This document shows positions 56,101 to 59,028 of a stretch of DNA of 64,000 nt, in pieces. The DNA comes from Arctopsyche grandis (taxonomy: Eukaryota > Arthropoda > Insecta > Trichoptera > Hydropsychidae): positions 12,250,501 through 12,314,500 of the forward strand of contig NC_135367.1 of the NCBI RefSeq assembly GCF_051622035.1, written 5' to 3'. A model generated the notes under the pieces. It saw only the letters and a program-made list of their open reading frames with translations, made no database searches and was not told the DNA's origin. The translations under genes were made by a program, and so were the position numbers. Within the stretch, counting starts at the first letter, position 1. Each line of letters opens with the position of its first letter.

Positions 56101-58377
56101 TGCTTTTTTTCTCTTTCTTTTCATGCAAAAATTTCTCTCTACTACTACTACATACATTCAATCTTCACTTCTGCATCGCAATGTGGAATATCGTCGAATA
56201 CTGTATTATTATTATCTGAAACGCGTGTCTGTCTGTGTGTGTACATTGTGCTTTATATAATATACATATAACCGTGGTATAAAAAAATAAAAATTTATAT
56301 ATATTGGAAAAAAATTCAAAATACCAAAAAAACACTAACAAATGATGAATGGTACGATTGCGGGTTGGATATAACAGCTTCTGCGCGATAATTGCCGAGT
56401 GTGGTACGATTGGTCGTACATGGTTGCTTGGTGTGGCGTGGGACTCAGCCTCGTGTCGGCCATTTTATTCTCTTCGGCGGCCATTTGTCTGCGGGGTGAG
56501 CGAGAACGAGAAGAGGCCCTCAACATGCAATACCTCATGCCCGGTATGTGTAAATAATCTGTATAAAATGCTGGATGTGACTCGTCGACAAAGCATATTG
56601 TGAACGTTATTGTGAATCTTTTACCAATTACTACGTATAATGGTTTCATTTCTTATCGGCACATACAGTGAAACTCACCACCATGTTTTACAAATGAAAG
56701 CTATGTGAATAATTATCAATATTGCGTTAATCTTTGACGGTGCAATGCAAGATAAATACTACCAAATAACTTTGTATTATGATTTTCTTGAAGGTGTTGT
56801 CTTTCCCAAGACAATATATGACAACGGTAAAAATGTTATGATAATGGAACTGTGGCCGAAATTGAATAAAGGAGAGATTACGATACTTGGTCATTCTGTG
56901 ATAGTTTGGCTGTGTGCATTTTGACTTTTAAAATAATATAAGTGAAAATTTTAAGTGCCCACAATGGTGCCCTCGCTCACTACTAATCAATAGCAGATTT
57001 TTAATTTTAAAATGCAATTAGCCAACCATTATATACTGACCAATTACACTGTTCGACACGAAAAATGTTTCAGAGACGAGATATGACTTTTCTTATAGAT
57101 CTATGCCCAGTGAACACGAATCTGGTAATAAAAAGTGTTGATTGGCTCGAGATTCGGAGATATATGTGTTTTTACACGAATCTGAATTGAATTAATAGGG
57201 ATAATATATTAAATTATCTTTATATGAGAATTAAATAAAATTCCACTTCGAAAAATCATATTTCGACTATTCTTGTGGATTAATAACAAAAATTCTATTG
57301 ATAACTGGCTTACCTCGATAAAATAAACGAATTTTTGTTATTAATCCACAAGAATAGTCGAAATATGATTTTTATAACTGGAATTTTATTTAATTCTCTT
57401 ATAAAGATAATTTAATATATTATCCCTATTAATTCAATTCAGATTCGTGTAAATACGAGTTAACACTAGTACGAGCTTTTTGCTCGCAATTTTACCTATT
57501 TAAAATTCAGCACACTTCCAGTTAACCCTTTTAAACGAAATCAAAAAATAGTGTGGCCAGAACACTATCCTAATAAACATGTTTCAATAGAAAATACTCA
57601 ATATAATGTAGTATTAATCGTGGGAAAAAATCCCAAGTGAAAATACGTAATTTTGACTTTTGATTTGAACTGGACGACTACTTAGAGAGATTTGAAAGCT
57701 GAAAAGTACTACAAATGAAAGATAAAATACCCGACTGTAGATTCCAATATTCATTTTGAACAGAAAATTAACAGATTTTGAGAAATCGACCGAACAACAC
57801 CAAGATATAGAAAAATCGCGCGATTTAAAAAACACATATATCTCCGAATCTCGAGCCAATCAACACTTTTTATTACCAGATTCGTGTTCACTGGGCATAG
57901 ATCTATAAGAAAAGTCATATCCCGTCTCTGAAACATTTTAAAAGTCGTCATTTGTCGAACAGTGTTATTAGTCTTTTCTTTTATGCATTAAAAAAGTTGC
58001 ATATTAAATTGATTGATATAATAAATAGAAAGACCACTTGTTGAAGTTTACAATATGCTTTCATGTAATTTTACTTGAAAATAAATTTTCAGTCACAATT
58101 TAACTATATTTTTAAACTTAAAACGACGGTTATGGTTTTGGATGTTGGATTTGTATTTTATATTTACAGATTCGTGTTTGTATATAAATGAAGTAAATTG
58201 AAATACAATACTAATAATATCATTATTCAATTCACAAAAACTTGCACTAATATATTTATTATTTTGACTACAGTATATCCGCAAAAGCAACAGTATGCTT
58301 ATGCTGGCTATCCACCACAACACTATCCTGCTGGACCTTATTACCACGGTTCCCAATATGGCCCGTACAACTACTGA
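5058..58377 (+). CDS. Four-TM PMP22/claudin/calcium-channel-gamma superfamily protein (gene level)
   Basis: The coding exons are 5058-5183, 25311-25440, 53010-53115, 53248-53390, 54862-54959, then 55179-55344 (6a) or 56378-56543 (6b), then 58274-58377. All junctions are in phase and the sum is 873 nt, or 290 residues. TM1 lies at about residues 6-27, followed by a long extracellular loop with a GLFRIC motif and a second Cys in THCNN. TM2 is at about 128-150, TM3 at about 157-178 and TM4 at about 214-238. The cytosolic tail is rich in Tyr, Pro, Gln and Gly. The N-terminal TM plus DxWLY and the GLxxxC loop resemble claudins and especially stargazin-type gamma subunits. Such proteins act in septate/tight junctions or as channel partners; which role applies here is not decided. 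I do not give a gene symbol. Confidence 0.85.
5184..5994. other. Start of intron 1, nothing assigned
   Basis: Intron 1 runs 5184-25310. This first part is AT-rich with scattered T/A runs and no gene or repeat that I recognise. Confidence 0.4.
5995..6115 (-). repeat. Fragment of the GGGCGAAA-TIR MITE family
   Basis: The stretch with CCCATATTTGAAGAAATGTA followed by GGAGAAAC matches the core of the elements at 13083, 28162, 33165, 44790 and 46450. The ends are missing. The following 6130-6660 is unassigned and includes a G-rich tract at about 6220-6260. Confidence 0.4.
6673..6746. repeat. (AT)n microsatellite at the 3' end of the RTE element
   Basis: This is a perfect AT dinucleotide run that abuts the (ATC)n tail of the RTE copy. 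A second, much longer AT run borders its 5' end. Confidence 0.9.
6764..8322 (-). pseudogene. RTE reverse transcriptase part (frameshifted)
   Basis: The reverse transcriptase half carries all core motifs: [17 protein letters not shown], motif A with [18 protein letters not shown], the catalytic [14 protein letters not shown] and YLYLGQ. The frame joins the endonuclease half through a frameshift near 8250-8280 (overlap of the two frames at 8228-8322). It stops early at TGA 6880-6882; one base over, it resumes as [11 protein letters not shown] and ends in [11 protein letters not shown] at TGA 6764-6766. Fragments elsewhere in the window show this C-terminus is normal for the family. The copy is therefore young but not coding-competent as read. 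Confidence 0.85.
8228..9709 (-). CDS. RTE endonuclease domain and linker
   Basis: The frame has 493 codons from ATG 9707-9709. The AP-type endonuclease (residues about 50-280) keeps its landmarks: [33 protein letters not shown] and GSDHRLV. A basic linker follows (about 290-420). The last residues are out of frame: the frame leaves the RTE consensus near STHIDT, where the RT half continues in another frame. The domain nicks target DNA to prime reverse transcription. Confidence 0.85.
   Translation of the reverse strand: MAVRTHSLNGNLSQVPPFSQHILDKCEKNNIQTSNKVRVTMDDSLANRNLYLATYNVRTLSSEGSVLALENELESIKWDLVGLSEVRRKQENQIILKSGNCLYWRGLPNGRIGGVGFLINKRIERNIIEINDISERICYVVLRISSRYTCQIFQVYAPTSSHPDEEIEDFYEKLQGAYDNSRHHFKIIMGDFNAKIGQKANTERAVGNFGTGQRNDRGDRLIEFAEHNRLFITNSFFRKNTNNKWTWESPKGDRNEIDFILTNALHSVKDVSVLSKVDIGSDHRLVRAKMAININCERRKLIKGCSNSPDFAQLRSRKKEFELELGNRYGKLNPEADIEELNTVISSVLTSTGKKLGGFRKQIKLSKISAETKNLIKHKRNLDRDNNKQEYNLVNKEIKKRIVRDVRDFNSKLIENTIKNNRSLKKCKQDLFLGKNQMIAIRSESGVIIRNREEIIDRVYTFYAKLYENDNGQFPTLESTHIDTRPKGSCSIA
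10431..11668. repeat. Perfect (AT)n array of 1,238 bp
   Basis: About 619 uninterrupted AT units lie directly against the 5' end of the RTE copy. The long Tyr-Ile open frame across it is an artefact. Such an array can extrude cruciforms and is hard to sequence, so its length is uncertain. Confidence 0.95.
11669..12893. other. Intron 1 sequence, nothing assigned
   Basis: This is intermediate-GC sequence without a supported gene. Short open frames at 12162-12663 have no family resemblance. Confidence 0.35.
12894..13015. repeat. Copy of a short repeat also near 56936 and 59735
   Basis: The copies share TGGTGC, ATTAATCGATAGCAGAT or the like, and TTTAATTTTAGTTTAAAAT, in either orientation. It is probably a small MITE. 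Only the resemblance is seen; the ends are not defined here. Confidence 0.35.
13083..13345 (+). repeat. MITE, GGGCGAAA-TIR family copy
   Basis: This copy reads, in order, CACGTGTAAAAAAACGCTAG, a conserved GATATTTTATCCTTATATTG motif, TTTGAAGCTATGTAGGAGAA and AATAATAAGATCGTACGAA. The same order occurs inverted at 46450-46770. Outer ends are degraded. Confidence 0.5.
13408..13426 (-). repeat. Second copy of the 19-bp GC-rich motif
   Basis: This is the exact reverse complement of 1424-1442. It sits in ACTAGTGGTGC context and is followed by T-rich sequence. It is probably the end of an interspersed repeat of unknown class. Confidence 0.45.
13427..14489. other. Intron 1 sequence, nothing assigned
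   Basis: No gene or repeat family is recognised beyond common TATGTA runs. Small open frames at 13555-14105 are without support. Confidence 0.3.
14492..15153. mobile_element. Candidate TA-flanked MITE with CAGTCCAAGT ends
   Basis: CAGTCCAAGT at 14492-14501 is mirrored by ACTTGGACTG at 15144-15153. Each is flanked outside by TA, as expected for the Tc1/mariner superfamily. Removing the LINE fragment inside it (14822-15115 plus one target copy) leaves a MITE of about 354 bp. The TIRs are short, so classification is tentative. Confidence 0.45.
14822..15115 (-). mobile_element. 5'-truncated Jockey-type LINE 3' end
   Basis: The fragment matches, inverted, the 3' end of the copy at 62774-63320. 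It includes the last codons (..RLPKHNLL and stop) and the A-rich 3' end. It is flanked by the 14-bp direct repeat GTATTTTCATGAAT (14808-14821 and 15116-15129), a clear target-site duplication. Confidence 0.75.
15240..15420 (-). repeat. A/T-rich minisatellite, 3' tail of the LINE
   Basis: About three to four imperfect units with AATAATAAAAATCATAAATA and an A-run lie just 3' of the ORF2 end on the minus strand. They are best read as the 3' UTR/tail of the LINE at 15424-19400. Confidence 0.6.
15424..18267 (-). pseudogene. LINE ORF2: endonuclease-reverse transcriptase with one premature TAA
   Basis: The frame is open for 867 codons from ATG 18265-18267 to TAA 15664-15666, then continues in the same frame for 79 codons to a second TAA at 15424-15426. 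The later part ([19 protein letters not shown], then [11 protein letters not shown]) resembles the C-termini of LINE fragments elsewhere in the window, so the first stop is a nonsense change. The endonuclease (residues about 8-235) has QNVRGL, ITETWL, SGDFNLN and DSYHPAL, with Tyr in the usual Asp place of SDH. The reverse transcriptase (about 470-740) has [33 protein letters not shown] and the catalytic YADD. Confidence 0.85.
18245..19348 (-). CDS. LINE ORF1 protein (putative nucleic-acid chaperone)
   Basis: The frame is intact, with up to 367 codons. The first ATG is at 19346-19348, but the Met at 19301-19303 (MEDIVTISQ) is an equally likely start. The N-terminal 100 residues look helical. 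A long Ser/Ala/Pro/Thr-rich linker follows (residues about 130-250). The C-terminal 100 residues ([11 protein letters not shown], then SSFKISV and [13 protein letters not shown]) resemble the conserved C-terminal domain found in ORF1 of several insect LINEs. I see no CCHC zinc knuckle. It presumably binds element RNA. The 3' end overlaps ORF2. Confidence 0.7.
   Translation of the reverse strand: MLSLCLDVLNRSHSTMEDIVTISQRILADLSKKGSGANVLTKDRVRYISDEIKNIVSIARVAFNNMASLKIAVESLQTIHTDVGEIKRMMCRPFPAALAPAVFVEPTTLQSGEVTLRELSTLSTECNNTTVHKQTPVRCPYDVIAASSTVSPPPYSASTSLASALASASTPGCATVSASTVSVSASPPSPIKPAKSYSQVAALSSTASPLPSSSSATLTSASASTSDYVPISCAPASASTVDPSNSFSQVAGTSSGRLPYTRGSGAPDKTLQVATIPKLKNVHVFNLANNCTCDTVKQFILNKIKNKRINVSQVAKTDMCSSFKISVDTETFNIIINPEFWPMGTGIREWLFLKKISSKPIAQTRDP
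19401..25310. other. Remainder of intron 1, mostly unassigned
   Basis: The sequence is AT-rich with many TATGTA runs. I see no exon matching the reading frame between 5183 and 25311. The patch at 20220-20900 is more GC-rich and is listed separately. The tract at 25290-25310 is the polypyrimidine/AG acceptor of exon 2. Confidence 0.4.
20560..20890 (-). pseudogene. Possible degraded LINE C-terminus
   Basis: On the minus strand one frame reads [19 protein letters not shown], a stop, then [13 protein letters not shown]. The RTRWRDxxR pattern followed by a late Trp resembles the tail of some LINE ORFs. The frame is interrupted and short. Continuing on the same strand is a Lys/Ser repeat (ASTKPS twice). 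This is a weak call. Confidence 0.25.
25311..25440 (+). CDS. Claudin-like gene, exon 2
   Basis: The exon has 43 codons plus one nucleotide (phase 1 donor, gtgagt). It encodes the extracellular loop: [19 protein letters not shown], then [16 protein letters not shown]. The GLFRIC segment corresponds to the GLWxxC signature of the claudin/gamma-subunit superfamily. It is preceded by a strong polypyrimidine tract and tttcag. Confidence 0.85.
25441..28161. other. Start of intron 2, nothing assigned
   Basis: Intron 2 runs 25441-53009. No exon or recognised repeat is seen here. Short open frames at 25467, 26583, 27177 and 27671 lack any family resemblance. Confidence 0.35.
28162..28441. mobile_element. 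MITE with GGGCGAAA terminal inverted repeats
   Basis: GGGCGAAATCACACA at 28162 is mirrored by TGTGTGTTTTCGCCC ending at about 28441. Between them is the conserved TCCTACATTTCATCAAATAT core shared with copies at 13083, 33165, 44790 and 46450. This is the best-preserved member. No target duplication is evident, and GCCCATATAG recurs once just outside the right end. Confidence 0.55.
28745..29072 (-). mobile_element. RTE 3' fragment
   Basis: On minus it encodes the RTE C-terminus ([16 protein letters not shown], then [11 protein letters not shown] and AFIQQW) and ends in a short ATC repeat at 28749-28760. It is diverged from the 6745 copy. It starts at GAAGTATGGAA, close to where two other fragments start. 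Confidence 0.8.
29073..30418. other. Intron 2 sequence, nothing assigned
   Basis: There is no gene or recognised element apart from the CT microsatellite at 29991-30018. Confidence 0.35.
29991..30018. repeat. (CT)n microsatellite
   Basis: A short CT run follows CTCTCCCCC. Confidence 0.8.
30419..30750 (+). mobile_element. tRNA-derived SINE
   Basis: The head has a tRNA-like A box (TAGCTCAGCGTTAATG) and a canonical B box (GGTTCAAGTCC). The body contains GTTTGCCGATTTATCTGATT and ACGGTTCCTCATCAAATTG, shared with copies at 54003 and, inverted, at 45950. It would be transcribed by RNA polymerase III and mobilised by a LINE. The tail region ends near TAGGTGTCGC. Confidence 0.7.
30751..33164. other. 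Intron 2 sequence, nothing assigned
   Basis: The sequence is AT-rich with long T/A runs. No supported gene, exon or repeat family is seen. Confidence 0.35.
33165..33445 (+). repeat. MITE, GGGCGAAA-TIR family copy
   Basis: The copy reads AAAAAACGCTAG, GATATTTTATCCTTGTTTTG, GACAGTGATCGAT, then AAAATAATAAGATTGTACGAA, the same order as at 13083. It is followed by GCAGTTTACCTCTCTTTGGG, the degraded end. Confidence 0.5.
33530..33995 (-). mobile_element. LINE 3' fragment (A-rich 3' UTR family)
   Basis: CCATTGTGGCATTAAAGGAA with CTAATGCGCCACAATGG at 33733-33780 matches, inverted, the 3' UTR at 42895-42950. The AACAATCCCTCAATTAGATC segment near 33953 matches 50525-50550. A-rich repeats fill the interior. 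It carries only remnants of coding sequence. Confidence 0.55.
33996..35357. other. Intron 2 sequence; (TGA)n microsatellite inside
   Basis: A TGA run lies at 34952-34974. No gene is supported elsewhere. Confidence 0.35.
35358..35663 (-). pseudogene. Tc1-like transposase N-terminus, relic
   Basis: The 101 codons match the N-terminal helix-turn-helix region of Tc1-type transposases: [20 protein letters not shown], then a basic linker ending [20 protein letters not shown]. It then frameshifts: the next frame reads [11 protein letters not shown], the expected continuation, before the reading is lost. The DDE catalytic domain is absent. The helix-turn-helix would bind the transposon end. Confidence 0.7.
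35664..36090. other. Intron 2 sequence, nothing assigned
   Basis: AT-rich flank of the Tc1 relic; no TIR could be placed. Confidence 0.3.
36091..36890 (-). mobile_element. RTE 3' fragment split by an insertion
   Basis: Positions 36091-36376 match the RTE 3' end with its ATC tail. Positions 36659-36890 continue the same element upstream in the reading direction (CATACAGCGTTTCATACTTC onward). About 280 bp of unrelated sequence separates the halves. The junctions form a 14-bp inverted pair, 36369-36382 and 36653-36666. Confidence 0.7.
36891..37674. other. Intron 2 sequence, nothing assigned
   Basis: Somewhat GC-richer at 36990-37400, with open frames on both strands that resemble nothing known to me. 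Confidence 0.3.
37675..38672 (+). mobile_element. RTE 3' fragment interrupted by a hAT-like MITE
   Basis: RTE sequence at 37675-38010 runs from GAAGTATGAAACGCTGTATG to CAGCAGTGGATGG. It resumes after the insertion at 38617 with ATGGCTGTCAATGATGATGA, the normal RTE end and tail. Coding is destroyed by many changes. Confidence 0.75.
38011..38616. mobile_element. hAT-like MITE, 606 bp
   Basis: It begins CAGTGGTGTAGT and ends ACTACACCACTG (12-bp TIRs). The flanking octamers are ATGGAAAT on the left and ATGGTAAT on the right, an 8-bp target duplication with one mismatch, as in the hAT superfamily. It sits inside an RTE fragment whose sequence resumes directly after it. No transposase is encoded. 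Confidence 0.65.
38673..42130. other. Intron 2 sequence, nothing assigned
   Basis: I found no gene, exon or clear repeat over this 3.5 kb. Short open frames at 39661, 40106, 41195 and 41216 have no family resemblance. Confidence 0.35.
42131..42960 (+). mobile_element. 5'-truncated LINE, C-terminus plus 3' UTR
   Basis: The reading includes [20 protein letters not shown] then [11 protein letters not shown], parallel to the C-terminal part of ORF2 at 15664-18267. After a frame change it reads [18 protein letters not shown] then IQLLNEIV, ending at TGA about 42652. The 3' UTR carries GCCATTGTGGCGCATTAGG and a TAAATTAAATAA end, shared inverted with 33733-33780. Similarity fades upstream of about 42260. 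Confidence 0.65.
42961..43649. other. Intron 2 sequence, nothing assigned
   Basis: No gene or repeat is recognised. Confidence 0.3.
43650..43712 (-). repeat. tRNA-like SINE head
   Basis: On minus, TGAGTTGGTAGGGCATTGGA resembles a tRNA A-box arm and GAAGGTTCGTAGTTCAATTT a degenerate B box. It differs from the 30419/54003 family. No convincing cloverleaf can be folded by eye, so a functional tRNA is unlikely. Confidence 0.4.
43713..44789. other. Intron 2 sequence, nothing assigned
   Basis: No supported gene or element. Confidence 0.3.
44790..45030 (-). repeat. MITE, GGGCGAAA-TIR family copy
   Basis: This is an inverted copy relative to 13083. AATCTTATTATTTCGAGAAG, TTTATCCTACATTTCTTCA, TATCACCGAAAACACTTTCG and TTTAAACGTGCAAAACTTTC occur in the family order. 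Confidence 0.5.
45215..45790. other. GC-rich patch, possible relic of an unknown gene or element
   Basis: This block is distinctly GC-richer than the intron around it. A minus-strand frame of 120 codons (45421-45783) and a plus-strand frame of 124 codons (45354-45728) overlap. Neither shows motifs I recognise, and no in-phase link to the host gene exists. It may be an old retrotransposed or DNA-transposon sequence. Confidence 0.25.
45900..46165 (-). mobile_element. tRNA-derived SINE
   Basis: On minus the head reads CATAGCTCAGCGGTTAT (A box) and GCGGGTTCAAGCCCGG (B box). Downstream the body contains AAGTCGATTGTTTCCTTTCA and TAATTTATCTGATTTCATTG, matching copies at 30419 and 54003. The distal body is diverged. 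Confidence 0.65.
46450..46770 (-). mobile_element. MITE, GGGCGAAA-TIR family copy
   Basis: It starts GGTGAAAGCACAGA. The order of conserved blocks is the reverse of 13083: TCGTACGATCTCATTATTTT, CTCCTATATTTCTTCAAATA, ATATCACCGAAAACACTCCA, GCGTTTTTTACACGTGCA. The right end near CTCGTGTCTGC is degraded. Confidence 0.55.
46771..48455. other. Intron 2 sequence, nothing assigned
   Basis: Several short frames are open at 47158-48150 but overlap on both strands and show no family motifs. Confidence 0.35.
48464..48660. mobile_element. hAT-like MITE, 197 bp, with perfect 8-bp target duplication
   Basis: The ends CAGTGGCGTGCCGTAGAAAT and, at the right, TTTCTACGGTACGCCAATG form TIRs of about 40 bp with a few mismatches, including TTTTATCGCA pairing with TGCGATAAAA. 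The flanks are ACATACGA at 48456-48463 and again at 48661-48668. TIR sequence and duplication size fit the hAT superfamily. It has no coding capacity. Confidence 0.75.
48688..49050 (+). mobile_element. RTE 3' fragment
   Basis: On plus it encodes the RTE C-terminus ([18 protein letters not shown], then [12 protein letters not shown]) and later CAGCAGTGGATGGCGAATGG. Several frame changes are present. It lies 20 bp after the hAT-like MITE. Confidence 0.8.
49051..50339. other. Intron 2 sequence, nothing assigned
   Basis: A GC-richer patch at about 49200-49550 has a frame open for 95 codons, without recognisable motifs. The rest is AT-rich. Confidence 0.3.
50340..50870 (-). mobile_element. LINE 3' fragment related to the 15.4-19.4 kb element
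   Basis: On minus, broken frames read [18 protein letters not shown], then [20 protein letters not shown]. They parallel [20 protein letters not shown] and [15 protein letters not shown] at the C-terminus of ORF2 (15424-15660). An A-rich 3' UTR on plus lies at 50370-50500, as in that element and at 33620-33900. Confidence 0.6.
50871..51834. other. Intron 2 sequence, nothing assigned
   Basis: No gene or repeat recognised. Confidence 0.3.
51835..52105 (+). repeat. Diverged SINE copy
   Basis: GATCGTTTCCTACCAGAGTT and GCCAATTTATCTAATTTCAT match the SINE body at 54130-54195. The tRNA-like head is decayed (GGGCTTAAGCCCT at the B-box place). Confidence 0.5.
52106..53009. other. End of intron 2
   Basis: A MITE-like scrap at about 52215-52285 ends GTGTGTTTTCACC. 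The rest is unassigned up to the exon 3 acceptor tttcag at 53009. Confidence 0.35.
53010..53115 (+). CDS. Claudin-like gene, exon 3
   Basis: This exon continues the extracellular loop from phase 1: [18 protein letters not shown], then [17 protein letters not shown]. It holds the second loop Cys and an N-glycosylation sequon (NET). The donor after CCAG is gttcta, a weak match; it is retained because the phase and the next exon fit. Confidence 0.8.
53248..53390 (+). CDS. Claudin-like gene, exon 4
   Basis: The exon enters in phase 2 and leaves in phase 1 (donor gtatgt). It encodes [20 protein letters not shown] (start of TM2), a short intracellular turn WKRSPGN and the first half of TM3 ([10 protein letters not shown]). 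Intron 3 is only 132 bp. Confidence 0.85.
53391..54002. other. Intron 4, first part
   Basis: AT-rich, no feature assigned. Confidence 0.3.
54003..54350 (+). mobile_element. tRNA-derived SINE
   Basis: The A box is in TATAGCTCGGTGGTTGCG and the B box in GGGTTCAATCCCTGG. The body runs through AGTCGATCGTTTCCTATCAA, GCCAATTTATCTGATTTCAT and GGTTCCTCATCAAATTGGC to CCACAGGTGTCGC. It is the most complete copy of the family and lies in sense orientation within intron 4. Confidence 0.7.
54862..54959 (+). CDS. Claudin-like gene, exon 5
   Basis: Phase 1 in, phase 0 out (donor gtatgt). It completes TM3 ([15 protein letters not shown]) and encodes the second extracellular loop start, [17 protein letters not shown]. 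Confidence 0.85.
55015..55085 (+). repeat. tRNA-like SINE head in intron 5
   Basis: TATAGTCGTTGAGTGTATCG resembles an A box, and CAGGTTCGATTCCTG is a perfect B box with stem. It lies about 100 bp upstream of exon 6a. It differs from the 54003 family. No complete tRNA fold is evident. Confidence 0.45.
55179..55344 (+). CDS. Claudin-like gene, alternative exon 6a (TM4)
   Basis: The exon is 166 nt, phase 0 in, phase 1 out (acceptor gtatag, donor gttggt). It encodes [18 protein letters not shown], the rest of TM4 and a charged segment ending AANVQYIMP. It aligns without gaps to exon 6b with 28 of 55 residues identical. If its donor is not used, the frame runs on for [10 protein letters not shown] to TAA 55374-55376, with AATAAA at 55392. 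Confidence 0.85.
55377..56377. other. Intron between alternative exons 6a and 6b
   Basis: AT-rich with no gene. It holds AATAAA hexamers at 55392 and near 55640 that could end a 6a-terminal transcript. Confidence 0.35.
56378..56543 (+). CDS. Claudin-like gene, alternative exon 6b (TM4)
   Basis: The exon is 166 nt, phase 0 in, phase 1 out (acceptor ataacag, donor gtatgt). It encodes [20 protein letters not shown]4 and a charged segment ending NMQYLMP. It is an obvious duplicate of 6a: equal length, same phases, same WYDWSY core. Splicing 6a to 6b would hit TAA within five codons, so only one can be used per mRNA. It contributes a different TM4 face and cytosolic juxtamembrane charge pattern (RGERERE instead of SKEKRKE). 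Confidence 0.85.
56936..57046. repeat. Copy of the short repeat also at 12894 and 59735
   Basis: GCCCACAATGGTGCC, ACTACTAATCAATAGCAGAT and TTTTAATTTTAAAAT are shared with the other two places. It is directly followed by the CMC-like element. Confidence 0.4.
57047..57964. mobile_element. CACTG-ended DNA transposon (CMC-like), non-autonomous, 918 bp
   Basis: It starts CACTGTTCGAC and ends GTCGAACAGTG. The inverted arms extend over more than 120 bp (57047-57173 against about 57826-57964), with a 16-bp gap in the left one. TTA flanks both ends, a possible 3-bp target duplication. CACTG ends and a 3-bp duplication fit the CMC superfamily, but no transposase is present. It lies in the last intron and contains a second element. 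Confidence 0.6.
57175..57449. mobile_element. Foldback MITE with 122-bp arms nested in the CMC-like element
   Basis: Positions 57174-57295 and 57329-57450 are inverted copies, nearly identical over 122 bp, around a 33-nt loop. With CACGAATCTG ends and TA on both sides it fits a Tc1/mariner-type MITE. The other arm of the host element reads straight through this point, showing that it is an insertion. Confidence 0.65.
57965..58273. other. End of the last intron
   Basis: AT-rich, ends with ttgactacag, the exon 7 acceptor. Confidence 0.35.
58274..58377 (+). CDS. Claudin-like gene, exon 7 to TGA
   Basis: Phase 1 in. It encodes the cytosolic tail, rich in Tyr, Pro, Gln and Gly ([18 protein letters not shown] and on to YGPYNY), ending at TGA 58375-58377. 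The tail is joined to either 6a or 6b. The frame stays open past the TGA (see next feature). Confidence 0.85.

Positions 58378-59028: not shown

Follow-up and report, generated by a model that had tools for sequence, protein, structure and literature searches.

Organisation of the claudin-like gene

The window, a 64,000-nucleotide stretch of the Arctopsyche grandis genome, contains an insect-type claudin-like membrane protein gene on the plus strand. Exon 1 starts at the ATG (5058–5183) and is placed by its translation and by the donor CAG/gtatgc, and exon 2 (25311–25440) carries GLF-C, part of the claudin signature. Exons A (53010–53115), B (53248–53390), and C (54862–54959) lie further downstream, with a match to Pfam Claudin_2 on the open frame of B and another, under the cut-off, on that of C. 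Exon 5A (55179–55344), which encodes the fourth membrane segment, and exon 5B (56378–56543) are homologous alternatives to each other, and both end in phase 1. The last exon (58274–58377) runs through the first stop codon, TGA 58375–58377, and the next base (+4) is G.

The open frame beyond the first stop

The preliminary description had placed the start of the last exon at 58274 and reported a frame broken solely by this TGA, with G as the following base, and then open for 216 codons, all of which is confirmed here: the claudin frame stays open from 58378 to 59025 and closes at TGA 59026–59028. The AATAAA noted there at the end of the block is present at 59028–59033 and overlaps the second stop (the two together occupy 59026–59033), and ten further copies of AATAAA or ATTAAA follow at 59599–60463. 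The block is indeed GC-richer than its flanks (0.48 versus 0.28 upstream and 0.24 downstream), and its first part favours C or G at third positions, with a third-position GC of 0.64 in the first half of the extension versus 0.52 in the second. The tail is rich in Ser (14.4%), Arg (11.1%), and Tyr (6.0%), as described, and contains 7.9% Asn and 7.4% Asp. The two competing open frames listed earlier (58295–58645, plus; 58495–58947, minus) also exist, but measured from stop to stop they span 58268–58645 on the plus strand and 58495–58989 on the minus strand.

Coding signal and the length of the frame

Frames were scored by codon usage trained on the same genome, with a score restricted to synonymous choices. 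The claudin frame of the post-TGA block is preferred (z 3.58; 0 of 1000 shuffles), and the remaining plus frames score about −2.2, supporting a block that is, as judged from its codons, largely protein-coding in the claudin frame. The signal sits in the later part of the extension: codons 89–216 (58642–59025, plus strand), which begin at the first in-frame ATG, are coding-like with a z of 2.46, while codons 1–88 (58378–58641, plus strand) are open and, taken together, show no frame-specific codon signal (z −0.93).

A frame of this length was considered unlikely by chance in the preliminary description, and this holds in simulation. With the block's own composition, 216 codons remained open in one given frame in 19 of 20,000 order-1 and 67 of 20,000 order-2 Markov sequences; with the composition of the window this occurred in 0 of 5000 sequences for each order, and 1 of 5000 dinucleotide shuffles was free of stops. 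Length by itself is nevertheless weaker evidence against chance than it looks, because the window, leaving aside TA repeats and ORFs judged transposon-like by eye, holds a second ORF of such length (4415–5152, minus strand, 246 codons) in which a coding signal is absent (z −0.76). A fortuitously open 3′UTR remains a live explanation of the post-TGA frame; a stretch of 88 open codons, the length of the first part of the extension, appeared in 47% of simulations, and the codon usage of the later part points to coding sequence.

Routes to the downstream block

Stop-codon read-through is known in many insect genes. Here, ribosomes would pass TGA 58375–58377 and translate the same frame to TGA 59026–59028, and the gene would make a long-tailed claudin-like version besides the normal one. 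Splicing around the first TGA is a live alternative. The earlier statement that no early phase-1 acceptors are seen was wrong: an AG at 58377–58378, its A being the last base of the stop codon, stands in phase 1 relative to exons 5A and 5B, and this possible weak acceptor would start an exon at 58379 and skip the stop. The early acceptors are, however, poor, and read-through is therefore favoured by elimination as the best remaining mechanism for reaching the block. It rests on elimination because codons 1–88, taken together, carry no codon signal, the TGA has a G at +4 and lacks a stem-loop downstream, and an in-phase AG overlaps it. The earlier reading of the tail as a read-through extension keeps its coding part on firmer ground than its mechanism; the complete reading is the best one available, at slightly below an even chance. 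If it is true, the claudin-like gene may also yield a long-tailed protein through read-through.

A SECIS search gave no match, and a search for relatives of the tail found none. The claudin-like stop, UGA-G without a stem-loop, is unlike that of headcase in the same genome, where a UAA-C stop with a strong stem-loop precedes a 205-codon extension.

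The claudin-like gene and its setting

The claudin-like gene is on the plus strand, with exons predicted from splice signals and reading frame at 5058–5183, 25311–25440, 53010–53115, 53248–53390, and 54862–54959, and a last exon at 58274–58377 that includes the stop codon TGA (58375–58377). Ahead of this last exon lie two homologous alternative exons for the fourth membrane segment, 5A (55179–55344) and 5B (56378–56543), each of which runs from phase 0 to phase 1, and which look like a mutually exclusive pair. The spliced 290-residue protein matches the Claudin_2 family (PF13903) with an E-value of 1.6e-49 and 168.8 bits (cut-off 29.1) over profile positions 1–191 of 192, and closes with a Tyr/Pro-rich stretch, an ending that by eye seems complete. 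Comparison with the PDB returned 18 weak matches (best E-value 0.072), named as TARP gamma subunits or glutamate receptor 2 constructs, and a search of the whole genome assembly (475.7 Mb, 189 contigs) with the claudin query returned 7 matches, every one at the claudin-like locus.

Upstream of the gene lies a zf-AD/C2H2 zinc-finger ORF (2383–2865, plus strand), the zf-AD domain being typical of insects, and downstream lies a SAM-domain exon (62059–62355, minus strand). The last claudin-like intron carries nested long inverted repeats at 57038–57973, which resemble a foldback element and comprise one of 128 nt with 96% complementarity and one of 112 nt with 99%; sub-threshold matches to mir-137 and mir-1641 are due to these repeats.

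The open frame behind the stop codon

Behind the stop codon, the claudin-like frame stays open for 216 codons (58378–59025) up to a second stop, TGA 59026–59028. The open frame is real, as the preliminary description had stated, and its judgement that such an opening is unlikely by chance was upheld by simulation: the frame was open for at least 216 codons in 19 (order 1) and 67 (order 2) of 20,000 Markov sequences with the composition of the block itself, and in none of 5000 with the composition of the window. Once TA repeats and ORFs judged by eye to be transposon-like are set aside, the window holds one further ORF of this length, the 246-codon frame at 4415–5152 on the minus strand, which overlaps the first claudin exon and has no coding signal (z −0.76); length alone is therefore no proof, and long chance frames do occur here.

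Synonymous codon choice was scored against dinucleotide shuffles, with codon usage trained on 19 kinase domains of the same genome; 30 domains had been fetched among 115 matches, and the 19 on contigs C1–C13 were kept, while 11 on small contigs were dropped as possible contaminants. Among 20 held-out coding sequences, z was at least 2 in 12 and below 2 in 8 when read in the true frame, and at least 2 in 4 when read in a wrong frame (f1). The extension frame reaches z 3.58, a score attained by none of 1000 shuffles and none of 65 intron windows, and the other two plus frames over the extension give −2.24 and −2.18. Plain codon scoring gives a weaker result (z 2.35, with 17 of 2000 shuffles as high), and the base-by-position chi-square of 22.3 (p 0.0011) is equalled by none of 130 intron windows. 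In a likelihood ratio against intron triplets, the extension scores 28.9, the highest of four plus-strand segments above 9 between 52 and 61 kb, although this ratio partly measures GC content, since for the comparison gene headcase a wrong frame and the right one score alike (41.6 and 40.7). A low z is in turn weak evidence, because the zf-AD ORF (−0.43), the SAM exon (−2.01), and a LINE-like ORF (−3.05) also score low; four more ORFs in the window, of unassigned status, range from −0.56 to 1.43. Judged by these sequence statistics, most of the 216-codon block is probably protein-coding.

On the opposite strand, one minus frame over the extension scores z 3.76 despite its 12 stops; the long ORF on that strand reaches only 0.88, with 193 of 1000 shuffles as high. 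Among 20 real coding sequences, this mirror frame ranks first of the six in 6 and the true frame in 10, so the minus-frame score is probably an echo, and a gene on the minus strand over the extension is unlikely.

The coding signal is unevenly distributed within the block. Codons 89–216 (58642–59025), which open with the first in-frame ATG, give z 2.46, with 3 of 600 shuffles as high, and are open in 0.3% of simulations; codons 1–88 (58378–58641) give z −0.93, with 494 of 600 shuffles as high, and are open in 47%. In this one genome and by this codon test, a coding signature is thus lacking in the first 88 codons taken together and present further on. The ratio of coding to noncoding density is 0.38 in the first 88-codon window and 6.1 in the next, and sliding windows of this length are positive once they start at 58399 or later. 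The chi-square is not significant over 58378–58500 (p 0.61) and reaches p 0.0038 over 58702–59025. The later part thus looks coding, and codon usage is silent on whether translation enters at the TGA.

Stop codon context and the headcase comparison

In flies and mosquitoes, hundreds of genes have already been predicted to undergo stop codon read-through, with 333 candidates in Drosophila and 353 in Anopheles; most of the insects tested were described as having abundant read-through, though by the same measure Tribolium and Apis did not (PMC5100048). In the groups compared there, the first stop is TGA in 61–76% and is followed by C in 49–63% (PMC5100048), and UGAC has been reported as the leakiest stop in mammalian cells (PMC7089771). 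Most extensions have been described as 8–300 residues long, with the long ones appearing disordered (PMC4528330), and the tails in flies as Ser/Arg-rich and disordered (PMC4528330, PMC4999894). The claudin-like gene resembles these Drosophila and Anopheles genes in its TGA stop, in the usual length of its second ORF, and in its disordered Ser/Arg-rich tail (PMC5100048; PMC4528330), and differs from them in the G at +4, the lack of a stem-loop, and the signal-free codons 1–88, all seen in one genome. The G after the TGA, in place of the leaky C, had been noted correctly in the preliminary description. Neither favoured feature, a C at +4 or a stem-loop, both of them enriched among read-through genes but not obligatory, is present: six stretches at the claudin stop were folded and none was unusual (z −0.27 to 0.87). 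With regard to selenocysteine, no SECIS family appeared among the matches, and a tRNA-Sec search, in which 53 of 25,623 candidates were scored, gave 12 matches, all below the 47-bit cut-off (best 46.3).

A positive control is provided within the same genome by headcase (hdc), a proven read-through gene in Drosophila, where a stem-loop has been reported as both necessary and sufficient (PMC8417969). The homologue, assigned by its PF16002 match, has a TAA stop followed by C and a 205-codon in-frame extension (stop and extension at 2073–2690 of locus L043, equivalent to C3:12513072–12513689; extension from 2076). The first 60 nt after the stop fold at −34.4 kcal/mol (z −3.36), with z only −1.46 over 100 nt. 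All three features of headcase, its stop, its stem-loop, and its extension, are thus retained here. UAA read-through has been reported from Dipterans only (PMC4528330), a range that the UAA-C extension found here may or may not widen. The headcase extension is similar in length to the 216 codons of the claudin-like gene, but the two differ in stop context, UAA-C with a strong stem-loop as opposed to UGA-G with none, and in the codon test, in which the headcase extension scores z 1.64 as a whole and 3.07 over codons 1–88, against −0.93 for codons 1–88 of the claudin-like extension.

Entrances into the frame and the putative tail

The block may represent a C-terminal coding extension of the Claudin_2-family membrane protein, entered when a fraction of ribosomes at UGA 58375–58377 decode the stop with a near-cognate tRNA, add an amino acid, and continue for 216 codons. 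The sequence itself shows the gene structure, the open frame, and codon usage of a coding kind over most of the block; that this UGA is the entrance, along with the inserted residue, the membrane side, and any function of the tail, is inferred. In favour, the open frame is rare by chance, its synonymous choice fits that of the genome's genes, the acceptors are poor, the tail resembles those described for fly extensions, and headcase retains its read-through features in this genome. The absence of a frame signal in codons 1–88, the UGA-G context, the lack of an unusual fold, an in-phase AG on the stop itself, the equally high minus-frame score, the wrong-frame scores of z 2 or more in 4 of 20 coding sequences, and the weaker plain codon score count against read-through. 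On balance, read-through is tentatively taken as the likeliest entrance, ahead of both splicing and a fortuitously open 3′UTR. Splicing, a downstream ATG, and recent nonsense changes are named as explanations to be excluded in read-through calls (PMC5100048). Alternative 3′ splicing would join 5A or 5B to an acceptor that overlaps or follows the TGA, making read-through unnecessary, and here the preliminary description, which had seen no early phase-1 acceptor, was wrong: AG 58377–58378, formed by the A of the TGA and the next G, had been overlooked, and its use would start an exon at 58379 with the tail frame preserved. With 5A and 5B both ending in phase 1, the phase-1 AGs would give exon starts at 58379, 58607, 58832, 58913, and 58940, those before 58830 being the AG within the stop and the one before 58607. 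Using a matrix built from the gene's seven inferred acceptors and compared with 1074 intronic AGs (median −1.2), the site at 58379 scores −1.4, which ranks first among the six earliest AGs downstream of the last-exon start but is just under the median, and the next phase-1 site, 58607, scores −9.1; all ten AGs with exon starts at 58379–58632 fall below the median. AG 58377–58378 also has G at −3, as do none of the gene's seven acceptors, and GAG acceptors are rare. Being small and rich in T, the matrix is biased against GC-rich sequence; when left out, two of its own sites score 0.3 and, for exon 5A, −8.0, which indicates that weak acceptors can be used. The appearance of the codon signal only 3′ of the stop region suits splicing, as do the GTs of other phases that lie near the ends of both alternative exons (e.g., 55349, 55353, and 56548), but the poor acceptor scores make this route unattractive, and it is regarded as unlikely.

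Slightly less probable again is that the block is a GC- and C-rich 3′UTR, open by chance and untranslated. A C-rich composition lowers stop density, as the frequent opening of codons 1–88 in simulations illustrates, long parts of the block are open in two other frames, the window contains a 246-codon ORF with no coding signal, and the tail has no Pfam match at E-values up to 1 and a single PDB match, at 2.4; the rarity of an opening across codons 89–216, their z of 2.46, and the z of 3.58 for the whole block argue against this. That the long tail is ancestral and the TGA new or false, through a recent nonsense change, a polymorphism, or an assembly error, is quite improbable: such changes are a known confounder of read-through surveys (PMC5100048) and one assembly was available, but the protein before the TGA looks complete by eye with its Tyr/Pro-rich end, no coding signal is seen in the codons that immediately follow the TGA, and no second copy of the tail was found for comparison. 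Least probable, and hardly to be expected, is initiation at ATG 58642, the first in the frame, on a transcript of its own or as a downstream cistron. This ATG is codon 89, and codons 89–216 carry a strong signal, but its context (CTGTCGATG) has T at −3, which is poor for a start, and the 88-codon windows are already positive from 58399, well upstream.

If the UGA is read through, the product would be a minor isoform whose long tail, basic, rich in Ser and Arg, and for the most part disordered, would follow the fourth membrane segment on the presumed cytoplasmic side and might provide new binding partners or scaffolding. Exons 5A and 5B combined with read-through would yield four isoforms, and the cytoplasmic reach of a membrane protein would be set by translation; were the tail made solely in this way, translation, not splicing, would set the amount of protein able to bind scaffolds. 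The stronger proposal, a conserved 216-residue cytoplasmic tail on an insect protein of the claudin/TARP superfamily, made only via UGA-G read-through without a stem-loop, is doubtful. As a read-through gene, the locus would join those already described in insects, its interest lying mainly in the class of protein and the unfavourable stop context; should the AG inside the stop be a real acceptor, it would instead be a warning for read-through catalogues. In the literature searched, no case was found of read-through with claudin or stargazin, or with claudin and septate junctions; an orthologue may well be listed in supplementary gene lists. The word claudin is absent from the main text of PMC3840789 and PMC13170385.

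Within the Claudin_2 superfamily, which includes claudins, TARP gamma subunits, and CG6398, the PF13903 match is shared, whereas the claudin-like tail matches no Pfam family at E-values up to 1; TARPs have long cytoplasmic tails. CG6398, a claudin homologue compared here at family level, has been reported as apical in fly embryos (PMC4197698). The sole match of the tail in the genome is the window itself, and no relative was confirmed among pattern matches in viral_contigs (9 and 1 in two scans) or genome_contigs (40 in one scan). The Ser/Arg-rich character proposed in the preliminary description is borne out by composition, and AlphaFold prediction from the single sequence gives a mean pLDDT of 45.9, with residues 141–160 alone averaging 76–80 and a hairpin predicted at residues 139–159. 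Two similar motifs, RDNLGRDYYRRF and VEDGFGRLYYVD, lie within 58813–58944 and show some synonymous codon differences.
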